Assembly (NCBI GenBank): GCA_029243145.1 | Contig: JAQWSQ010000019.1 | Span: 62,001 to 126,000, forward strand | From: Planctomycetaceae bacterium | GTDB lineage: Bacteria > Planctomycetota > Planctomycetia > Planctomycetales > Planctomycetaceae | DNA: 64,000 nt | Direction: 5' to 3' | Shown here: positions 10,596 to 13,409 of the stretch, in pieces | Position numbering within the stretch: the stretch's first letter is position 1 | How the letters are laid out: every line of letters begins with the position of its first letter | Program-made: the position numbers and the translations under genes | The notes under the pieces: model-generated | Databases searched by the model: none | What the model was told of the DNA's origin: nothing | Seen by the model: the letters and a program-made list of their open reading frames with translations, nothing else

Positions 10596-11552
10596 TTATG
10601 GGGAGAGGAGATCAATGACTTGTTTAAGAGAAGTTAATAGCCGATCTGGCTTCAAATGTTCTTCTTTCAATTGTGAGGAACTTGCACGCAGAGACAATCG
10701 GTCATTGGCCAAGAGTGCCGTTTTCCAACCGTGCTGTTTGGCAAGTTCCAGATCTCCTTCTAACCGTGTCGAAACGGAAAGCACTTGATGAGGTTGAATT
10801 CTTTGTTCCGACAGTTGTTTCTCTACTGTTTTATAAAAGGTTTGTGACGATTTGCGAAGCCCCAGATTGTGTGACATTACAGAGAGGGACGAATCAAACA
10901 GTCCGACGGGAACCTCGTGATCGGTCTTTTTCCGTATCATCCACAGAAAATGAGGCAGTGAAAACTCTTCTGTCTCTCCGAAAACTGCCTGACGGACACC
11001 TCGATTGTTGAGCGTCAGCAAGGTATCGCAAATTTCAGGAGAAGTCTCAACCCCTTGCAGAGAAAGATGATAGAGGAATCCGATGTGTTGGGCAAGGCGT
11101 TCTTGATCTCCATGAATCGTTCTGTCCCAATGATATTCTTTCTTCATTAAGCGGTCCAGAATTCGAGACCAGATTTCGCTCAATCGAACGAGCGGGGTGT
11201 CTCCCGGACTGCAACTTCTGGTCATTGTTAGTTGATCGAGCAATTCCTGGTACTGATTTAGCAGGTATTTCCAGGGTGCTCCCGGTTTTCGCGTCATGCT
11301 TTGCCACATTGAGAACTCTTCCAGAGTCTTCTCGATGGCAATTTGCATGCGAAAATCGTCGTTCACAAGTCTGACTAATTGCCCGTCACTGATACGAACC
11401 AAAGTCCCATAAAAATCCCAGAAAACGACTTTGATATCAGGCAAAGGCTGAATCGAAGCTTGTGCTGTAACCGGCTGAACGGGTGGTGGAGTTGGCCATT
11501 TCAGTGGTTTTTCATGGAGCCAGTCGAAATATTCGGCCCAAGTGTAAGTCAT
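10596..11552 (-). CDS. HAD-superfamily hydrolase-like protein
   Basis: 318 residues from the ATG at 11552; an ATG at 11609 is also possible. Motif I is VVFWDFYGTLV (about residues 42-52), with the nucleophile Asp but Tyr in place of the second Asp of DxD, as seen in haloacid-dehalogenase-like members. Motif II/III and IV candidates are VLSVSTRLEGDLELAKQHG and the following WKTALLAND. An N-terminal extension of about 40 residues (YTWAEYFDWLHEKPLKWP) precedes the domain. The substrate is unknown. The gene is divergent from the leuA leader, and its start region abuts the proposed leu promoter. Confidence 0.7.
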   Translation of the reverse strand: MTYTWAEYFDWLHEKPLKWPTPPPVQPVTAQASIQPLPDIKVVFWDFYGTLVRISDGQLVRLVNDDFRMQIAIEKTLEEFSMWQSMTRKPGAPWKYLLNQYQELLDQLTMTRSCSPGDTPLVRLSEIWSRILDRLMKKEYHWDRTIHGDQERLAQHIGFLYHLSLQGVETSPEICDTLLTLNNRGVRQAVFGETEEFSLPHFLWMIRKKTDHEVPVGLFDSSLSVMSHNLGLRKSSQTFYKTVEKQLSEQRIQPHQVLSVSTRLEGDLELAKQHGWKTALLANDRLSLRASSSQLKEEHLKPDRLLTSLKQVIDLLSP

Positions 11553-11612
11553 GATATCCGGTCTATTTCGAGTGAGATTTGTCGCGAGTTGAGGATGGAT
11601 CTGATTCATGAC

Positions 11613-11641
11613 TTGACCAAGATCGAACCCGACGTTAATTT
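11613..11641 (+). promoter_or_regulatory. Sigma70-like promoter upstream of the leu leader
   Basis: TTGACC at 11613-11618, a 17-nt spacer and TAATTT at 11636-11641. Transcription would start near 11648, about 20 nt before the leader-peptide ATG. Planctomycete promoters are poorly characterised, so this is a tentative match. Confidence 0.45.
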
Positions 11642-11668
11642 TAGTGTCTCAAACGAACAGTCTCAATT

Positions 11669-11731
11669 ATGCAATCTATAAATCTCCTGAACTTGCTCCT
11701 ACCGAGCCTGCTACTTTGCGGGAGAGCTTAG
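11669..11731 (+). CDS. leuL: Leucine-rich leader peptide of the leuA attenuator
   Basis: A 20-codon frame ATG (11669) to TAG (11729-11731). Eight of its residues 6-16 are leucine (LL-N-LLL-PS-LLL), using CTC, CTG, TTG, CTA and CTT codons. It lies 118 bp before leuA and directly upstream of a terminator, as expected for a control peptide whose translation senses charged leucyl-tRNA. The stop codon overlaps the 5' arm of the proposed antiterminator. No strong ribosome site is visible. The name leuL is used by analogy with proteobacterial leader peptides. Confidence 0.75.
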   Translation: MQSINLLNLLLPSLLLCGRA

Positions 11732-11773
11732 GGTTTGCACTGAGACAATTCAAAACGAATCGATCAAAACCCT
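11730..11773 (+). promoter_or_regulatory. Antiterminator of the leucine attenuator
   Basis: AGGGTTT at 11730-11736 can pair with AAACCCT at 11767-11773. This pairing uses the same bases as the 5' arm of the terminator stem, so the two structures exclude each other. A ribosome stalled at the Leu codons leaves 11730-11736 free; a ribosome at the leader stop covers it. Confidence 0.6.
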
Positions 11774-11804
11774 GCGGTCTCTCATAAGACTTCAGGGTTT
11801 TTTT
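11766..11804 (+). terminator. Attenuator terminator upstream of leuA
   Basis: Stem AAAACCCTG (11766-11774) with CAGGGTTTT (11793-11801), plus an inner GTCT/AGAC stem (11777-11780 with 11787-11790). The run of seven T ends at 11804. It lies 45 bp before the leuA start codon, so it must be conditional for leuA to be expressed. Confidence 0.85.
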
Positions 11805-11849
11805 GTTGCTTCTTACTGACACGACAGGCATTGAACACAGGTAATTACG

Positions 11850-13409
11850 ATGTCCACCAACAACGAGACAGTCATCATTTTCGACACCACGCTGCGTGAC
11901 GGGGAGCAATCTCCCGGTTGCAGCATGAACACCGATGAGAAAATTGAAGTGGCCAAGGCACTCGTGGAGCTGGGAGTCGATATTATCGAAGCCGGATTCC
12001 CGATTGCTTCGCCGGGTGACTTTGAAGCCGTTCAACGGATCGCTCGTGAATGTGGTGCCCAAACGACGATCTGCGGCTTGGCTCGCAGTCGTAAGGATGA
12101 TATCGACCGGGCGCGCGATGCACTGATGGATGCCGAGAAAAAACGGATTCACGTTTTCTTGGCAACCAGTTCGATTCATCGCGAACACAAATTGGGAATG
12201 GATAAGGCGCAAATCGTCGATACGGCTGTCGAGATGGTCGCTCGTGCAAAAGAGTATTGCGACGACATCGAATTCTCACCCGAAGATGCGGCCCGCACCG
12301 AACTCGATTTTCTTTGTGAAGTTGTCGAGAAAACAATTGCCGCCGGTGCAACCACCGTCAATATCCCCGATACGGTCGGCTACGCAACGCCATCACATTA
12401 TTACAATGTGATTTCGACTCTCAAAAACGAAGTTCCCAATATCGACCAGGCGATTATCAGTACTCATTGCCATAACGATTTGGGACTTGCCGTCGCAAAT
12501 AGTTTGTCTGCCGTCGAAGCGGGGGCTCGACAGATTGAATGCACGATGAACGGATTAGGGGAACGTGCGGGAAACGCAGCGTTGGAAGAAGTGGTGATGG
12601 CGCTGCGCACTCGTCATGACTATTATGGCATCAATACCAATATCAATACCCAGCGATTGCATCCTGTGAGCCAGCTTGTTTCGCGAATCACGGGAATGAA
12701 AGTGCAACGCAATAAGGCCATCGTCGGGCAAAATGCCTTCGCTCACGAAGCCGGCATTCATCAGCACGGCATGCTGAAAGAACGCACGACCTACGAGATC
12801 ATGCGGCCGCAGGATATCGGTTTGACGGGCACGAATCTTGTGTTGGGTAAACACAGCGGTCGACACGCCTTCCGAGACCGTGTGGATCAGCTTGGCTATA
12901 AAATCGATGACGAGACTTTCCAAAAAGTCTTCGATGGGTTTATTACGTTGGCTGACAAAAAGAAGGAAATTTTCGATTCGGATATCACCGCGTTAATCGA
13001 GTCGCAAAAGACCGACTTCGAAGCGCATTGGGTGCTCAACAGCTTTCATACGTCTGCCGGGACTGGCATGATTCCGACCGCGACCGTCGAACTTCAACAC
13101 GATGAAGAAGAACCGGTTTCCGATGCGGCAACGGGAGACGGTCCGGTCGATGCGGTTTTCCGTGCATTGGAACGCATCGTGGGGATTGAAGCCCGTTTGG
13201 AAGATTACGATGTCCGCAGTATTTCCAGTGGAAAAGACGCACAGGGAGAAGTGATCGTCGAAATTAGTTATCTCGGACGCAAATATCACGGTCGTGCTAT
13301 CAGCACCGATATCATCGAAGCCTCCACGCGGGCCTATTTGCACGCATTGAATCGTGCCTGGTCTGATCGAGATTCAAAGCCTGCTGAAAGAGAAAAAGCC
13401 AACCTATAA
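11850..13409 (+). CDS. leuA: 2-isopropylmalate synthase
   Basis: 519 residues. It condenses acetyl-CoA with 2-oxoisovalerate, the first committed step of leucine synthesis. Signature blocks are [12 protein letters not shown] (residues 11-22), the metal-binding [13 protein letters not shown] region, [14 protein letters not shown] and GKHSGRHAF. The C-terminal 130 residues (FHTSAGTGM..., [14 protein letters not shown]) form the leucine-binding regulatory domain, so feedback inhibition is expected in addition to the transcriptional attenuator. Length and domain order match the standard LeuA1 type. Downstream genes at 13437 and 14024 follow closely and may share the transcript. Confidence 0.96.

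Follow-up and report, generated by a model that had tools for sequence, protein, structure and literature searches.

The occurrence of a leucine-rich reading frame and a strong hairpin in front of a leucine synthesis gene raises the question of whether a translating ribosome decides if that gene is transcribed. Such an arrangement is found in the window, which here denotes the whole analyzed stretch of 64,000 nucleotides from a Planctomycetaceae bacterium. In this stretch, leuA (11850-13409, plus strand) is preceded by a leader frame rich in Leu codons, an antiterminator arm and a strong intrinsic terminator. Control by leader peptides of this kind is an established mechanism in proteobacteria and actinobacteria. 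The first-pass annotation of the window proposed the classical leuL/trpL type of control and regarded it as little described in planctomycetes. This agrees with the open-access literature searched, in which no account of leader-peptide attenuation in planctomycetes was found. The mechanism is known, and it is its setting in the planctomycete phylum that is apparently undescribed.

Parts of the leader region

The following elements were mapped around the start of leuA.

11613..11641, plus strand: predicted sigma-70-type promoter of the leader transcript, read from the sequence, with -35 TTGACC (11613-11618), a 17-nt spacer and -10-like TAATTT (11636-11641)
11660-11665 with 11741-11746 and 11670-11674 with 11735-11739, plus strand: base helices that extend the region 1 pairing in the window fold
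11669..11731, plus strand: leader ORF MQSINLLNLLLPSLLLCGRA, 20 codons with stop TAG at 11729-11731, from translation; conserved in relatives
11683..11689, plus strand: region 1 (TCTCCTG), which can pair with 11719-11725 and thereby protect the terminator
11684..11716, plus strand: putative control codons from translation, eight Leu in residues 6-16, two of them the rare CTA
11720..11736, plus strand: region 2, the antiterminator 5' arm GGGAGAGCTTAGGGTTT, with the leader stop codon inside the arm
11766..11783, plus strand: region 3, both antiterminator 3' arm and terminator 5' arm AAAACCCTGCGGTCTCTC, from the window fold and covariation
11766..11804, plus strand: intrinsic terminator, with a hairpin at 11766-11801 (-17.9 kcal/mol) and seven T at 11798-11804
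11850..13409, plus strand: leuA, 2-isopropylmalate synthase, the presumed regulated gene; its product is over the cut-off of the NCBIfam equivalogs NF002086 (788 bits) and TIGR00973 (753 bits)

The leader frame corresponds exactly, by sequence and translation, to the one noticed in the first-pass annotation, and its Leu residues are numbers 6, 7, 9, 10, 11, 14, 15 and 16. As had been claimed, the TAG stop overlaps the motif AGGGTTT (11730-11736), and this motif can pair with AAACCCT (11767-11773) in the 5' arm of the terminator. The antiterminator turned out to be longer than this pairing. It joins 11720-11736 with 11766-11783, with GGGAGA (11720-11725) pairing with TCTCTC (11778-11783) in addition to the stretch of TAGGGTTT (11729-11736) with AAAACCCT. 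The terminator lies where it had been placed, 45 bp before the leuA ATG (11850). On the 5' side of the leader, the neighboring gene runs divergently (10596-11609, minus strand), which means that the hairpin does not mark the end of an upstream gene, and leuB, leuC and leuD do not come after leuA within the window. Promoter-like motifs are common in the family of the window: 81 of 98 members have TTGAC no more than 110 nt 5' of the point where the leader begins, and 61 of the 98 have a -35/-10 pair with a spacing of 16-18 nt.

Terminator and antiterminator, the two alternative structures proposed earlier, can both be folded from the leader RNA, the latter on a shorter transcript. The fold of the 211-nt leader is more stable than all but one of 200 dinucleotide shuffles (z -3.0), and the fold of the transcript before the terminator reaches -28.4 kcal/mol (z -3.0). 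The 1:2 helix is also well formed, and the stretch containing the antiterminator has an energy of about -23 kcal/mol. Even when a ribosome is stalled, the full window RNA favors the terminator conformer (-26.9 kcal/mol versus -23.1 kcal/mol for the antiterminator on a shorter transcript). For this reason, the switch must act kinetically, with 2:3 forming before region 4 is transcribed. The same order of events is known for the trp attenuator.

Conservation and covariation in relatives

Relatives of the window's LeuA were sought at the levels of genus, family, class and phylum, and the DNA upstream of the matches was analyzed. A strict script, which called for a Leu-rich ORF of 8-45 codons followed by a hairpin of -9 kcal/mol or lower with at least five T in eight nucleotides, was positive for 98/110 regions in the family, 26/44 in the rest of the class and 8/29 in the others. 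With a relaxed test, these numbers became 101/110 in the family, 34/44 in other families of the class and 7/29 in other classes, for a total of 142/183 real regions; among 183 dinucleotide shuffles, 2 were positive. The leader frame and the alternative pairing, on whose presence in related species the first-pass annotation had let its reading depend, recur in the majority of the family's 58 sampled genera and of the other families in the class. Such conservation argues that the leuA attenuator, as predicted from these genomes, is old in the class and is not a one-species curiosity.

The regions that failed the strict test are of several kinds. One is masked with N (L064), and in another (L382) the leader lies farther upstream. 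Several show the same architecture by eye with a weaker T tract, especially in family f93, and the tract after the hairpin is weak in parts of both f93 and f94. In f93 (L160, L165, L166, L170 and L172), the same leader and competing hairpins are followed by a short, interrupted T tract, e.g., GGGGCTTCTTCG, and termination may be weaker there or different in kind. An assignment of f94 to Gemmataceae by means of squalene epoxidase was rejected, since the model also matches the E. coli and Caulobacter controls. None of the six f44 family members, among them one corresponding to a Candidatus Brocadia genome, yielded the leader arrangement; it is present at L206, in a genome of the window's family that matches Thalassoglobus neptunius. 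Of the 80 named relatives, those that carry the label of another phylum are almost all without it. The clear exception is L228 (QIGP01000223.1), a metagenome-assembled genome labelled Gammaproteobacteria, where a leuA relative of 56% identity has a Leu-rich leader and a terminator. It may be due to transfer or misbinning, or be an independent case.

The leucine content of the leader is far beyond chance. Among the leader-bearing family members, 81% of the real upstream regions contain six Leu in 12 codons, as compared with 1% of shuffles, and 57% contain seven, a density reached by no shuffle. The choice of codon is also unusual. CTA accounts for 21% of the leader Leu codons (126 distinct peptides) versus 4% in the long ORFs of the window, where it is the least used Leu codon, although the two samples come from different genome sets. 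This enrichment agrees with tRNA sensing. The peptides share a common Leu-rich core, and one clade has a shared C-terminal GRS/ARS end. Their sequences diverge widely among families, and what is kept is the Leu content and the distance to region 2.

Competition between the hairpins can be followed in the changes of their arms. For each leader, the best pairing between the stop-codon stretch and the terminator 5' arm was computed. Family leaders reach a median of -15 kcal/mol and the others one of -18.7 kcal/mol, and the median z against shuffles is about -2. Because such a search picks the optimum, the comparison was repeated with the register held constant relative to the stop codon, with 72 distinct UAG leaders and an offset of +4 taken from an offset scan on the same data. 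In this register, 76% of the 2:3 cells are paired versus 25-58% when the arms are slid by 1-3 nt. The arm-swap test does not depend on the choice of offset: none of 3000 whole-arm swaps among the sequences reached the observed 2:3 pairing, a figure that is not a probability, since the control leaves shared ancestry in. The leaders of relatives, compared as the first-pass annotation had proposed, have conserved Leu codons, and compensatory cells number 40 against a swap mean of 14.6 and a swap maximum of 32. Across families, region 3 pairs with both region 2 and region 4 through changes of the A-U-A, G-C-G and C-G-C type, i.e., the terminator 5' arm covaries with both of its partners.

The signal comes from the comparison across families. 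In an alignment of 27 sequences from the family, the arms are nearly invariant and 2:3 covariation is uninformative. The counterpart of the 1:2 helix is 74% paired in the family versus 26-55% when slid, and its covariation is not decisive because the arms hardly vary. In leaders ending with TGA or TAA (e.g., L021, L024 and L029), the antiterminator arm lies about 7-16 nt past the stop codon rather than across it. The swap test in one fixed register is not significant for this UGA/UAA clade, perhaps because the position of the arm is not fixed there; nevertheless, a duplex search still finds the arm in most members.

Ribosome position, proposed mechanism and alternatives

The position of the Leu codons relative to the arms was analyzed by simulating a ribosome: all RNA as far as 15 nt past the first A-site base was removed, and the transcript made before region 4 was folded. 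In the family, the probability that region 3 pairs upstream is approximately 0.7-0.76 with most Leu codons in the A site, about 0.2 with the stop codon there and 0.4-0.5 without a ribosome. In the window, the corresponding values are 0.54-0.93, 0.01 and 0.07. In UAG leaders, a stall between codons -13 and -7 gives a pairing probability of about 0.75, and one between codon -3 and the stop gives about 0.2; the Leu frequency is high over the former codons and near zero over the latter. In TGA/TAA leaders, this boundary is displaced by three to four codons, as are the Leu codons, which reach codon -3 as compared with about -6, so that the spacing to region 2 is roughly kept. In these simulations, a stall on the Leu codons would leave the antiterminator free, and a ribosome at the stop codon would mask it.

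Of the elements by which a classical attenuator is recognized, these are present: a leader ORF, codons for the end product, a terminator, a mutually exclusive antiterminator, and a matching placement of the codons. The 1:2 protector hairpin is strong in the window and can usually be folded, but its covariation is not decisive. The locus is thus very probably a classical, ribosome-mediated leucine transcription attenuator of leuA, and the leuL/trpL-type logic first suggested for it gains support from the relatives, the three-way covariation across families and the simulated stall geometry. The course of events below, from translation of the leader and the order of folding to termination and the leucine response, is what would be expected from these observed parts, their conservation, covariation and geometry. 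RNA polymerase would start near 11648, with a ribosome trailing it on the leader frame. With ample leucyl-tRNA, the ribosome would reach the stop codon and cover region 2, the terminator 3:4 would form, and the transcript would end approximately 45 nt before leuA. Without a ribosome, region 1 would hold region 2, and the terminator would form as well. When leucyl-tRNA is scarce, the ribosome would stall on the Leu codons and cover region 1, so that 2:3 could pair before region 4 is made and the polymerase could read into leuA. In this way, leuA would be induced by a shortage of charged leucyl-tRNA.

The same parts could, in principle, be read differently. Taken alone, the hairpin is an ordinary intrinsic terminator, and it could be constitutive or the 3' end of another transcript, next to a Leu-rich ORF that arose by chance. 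The divergent upstream gene, the recurrence of the leader across the class, which shuffles reproduce in only 2 of 183 cases, and the absence of such leaders from leuA paralogues and other biosynthetic genes leave this reading scarcely credible, and conservation has largely refuted it. A T-box or a small-molecule riboswitch could sense uncharged tRNA or leucine directly, and T-boxes often control genes of amino acid synthesis. This is highly improbable here: no Rfam family reached its gathering score in the window, a relaxed scan of the leader gave no credible match, the T-box core had no Rfam match at either the gathering or a relaxed threshold, and conservation falls on the leader codons and the two hairpins.

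Two further explanations accept the leader and change what it does. Control could be translational or mediated by a protein, as for the actinobacterial LEU element, and not exerted through transcription termination. The Leu-rich leader before leuA of Streptomyces coelicolor did not show classical attenuator behavior when mutated (PMC1262725), which means that a Leu leader alone is no proof of attenuation, and the weak T tracts of some f93 relatives point in the same direction. Against this stand the strong hairpin and T tract that follow the leader in almost all family members and the covariation of the terminator 5' arm with both partners, an arrangement that the actinobacterial element, as described, does not have; this alternative is distinctly unlikely. 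It is also conceivable that the Leu-rich nascent peptide arrests the ribosome in the manner of TnaC or SecM, in which case the switch would read the arrest rather than the supply of charged leucyl-tRNA. The shared Leu-rich core and the GRS/ARS end of one clade would fit an arrest peptide. However, the peptides differ widely between families while Leu content and distance to region 2 persist, the enriched rare CTA fits tRNA sensing, and the GRS end follows from the antiterminator sequence GGNAGGTCTTAG, by which it is encoded. Nascent-peptide arrest is therefore very unlikely.

A classical attenuator at leuA would bear on a wider debate. Planctomycete cells have been argued to be compartmentalized, and it has been debated if those with internal membranes retain the coupling of translation to transcription. 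Attenuation depends on this coupling, since it needs a ribosome close behind RNA polymerase, and its use at several pathways across the class, considered below, would be genomic evidence of coupled transcription and translation in such cells.

Other biosynthetic genes and known systems

Leaders of this kind are selective in the genes that they precede. No Leu leader was found before two kinds of LeuA paralogue in the genus (LeuA-like and CimA-type), and none of the genes ilvB, trpE and hisG, each taken from about 21-23 relatives, has a convincing leader with a terminator in front. With a covariance model of the leuA leaders, the leuA site was the best match in most family genomes with a placeable leuA. 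Secondary matches of the model led to the genes for citramalate synthase (cimA, isoleucine route) and DAHP synthase. Other secondary matches (G000 C204 and G002 C12) lie, by eye, behind a gene resembling a B12-dependent ribonucleotide reductase and were taken as chance.

Before cimA, the leaders include MILNSIVIINILVGIIVPSEKMRL (own genome, contig C95) and MYSQLSGPEIANAPLGISISIIAIIRQNLR, with a terminator after them, and at least four Ile in 12 codons occur in 17 of 30 regions versus 2% of shuffles. The leader of the own genome (L409, on contig C95 of G000) is about 450 nt upstream of cimA, and Ile-rich leaders with terminators also precede cimA at L007, L380, L386, L400, L406, L411, L413, L414 and L416. 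The Ile-rich leader is likely an isoleucine attenuator in the own genome and in relatives and is treated as a candidate lead. Before DAHP synthase, the leaders include MTLSTLYKWTLSQPKFGFAELFYFGGYPMK (own genome, contig C165), MRSHEDRRFSWWWFYFSPAGSQGSAGSSVD and MIVTNSYFWQFFTYFTGGPGGTA, again with a terminator after them, and at least six aromatic residues in 12 codons occur in 13/30 regions versus 0.3% of shuffles. In the own genome, the leader (L446, on contig C165 of G000) precedes the matched start by about 394 nt; further Phe/Tyr/Trp-rich leaders (e.g., FSWWWFYF) are found at L388/L423, L425, L428, L431, L433, L435, L438 and L441-L445. This leader is, as a second candidate lead, likely an aromatic amino acid attenuator. 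It is somewhat probable that attenuation is a standing strategy, across at least the class, at first committed steps (leuA for Leu, cimA for Ile and DAHP synthase for Phe/Tyr/Trp) and is not used at ilvB, trpE or hisG. The apparent extension to cimA and DAHP synthase offers definite predictions on regulation in a group about whose gene control little is known.

A parallel for the aromatic leader exists in Corynebacterium glutamicum, in which leaders have been reported before leuA and before aroF (Phe-Tyr-Phe) (PMC4046766); none was found for the cimA leader in the papers searched. The Corynebacterium ilvBNC attenuator (ilvB motif uORF) also has a leader peptide rich in branched-chain residues together with terminator and antiterminator hairpins (PMC10272879, PMC11857589, PMC11109978), but it serves another gene and has mixed Ile/Val/Leu codons, and the planctomycete ilvB genes examined are without such a leader. 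In Firmicutes, a Leu-rich attenuator peptide of Staphylococcus aureus is described as governing branched-chain amino acid synthesis (PMC5794164), a likeness at the level of description. The actinobacterial LEU element shares the Leu-rich leader peptide before leuA. It is, however, described as a pseudoknot, one stem of which joins the Shine-Dalgarno box of leuA to the Leu codons, and other attenuator parts are missing (PMC1262725); the planctomycete leader is set apart from this description by its covarying terminator and antiterminator.

The gammaproteobacterial leu attenuator (leuL) likewise combines a Leu-codon leader, competing hairpins and an intrinsic terminator before leuA. The E. coli leu leader uses rare CTA control codons, and CTA is likewise prominent in the planctomycete leaders as measured here. 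Nevertheless, the covariance model of the Rfam Leu leader (presumably RF00512), which represents gammaproteobacterial leuL, gave no match to the planctomycete leader at the gathering or a relaxed threshold. The leader of the window also differs in that its stop codon lies within the antiterminator arm and that none of leuB, leuC and leuD comes after leuA in the window.
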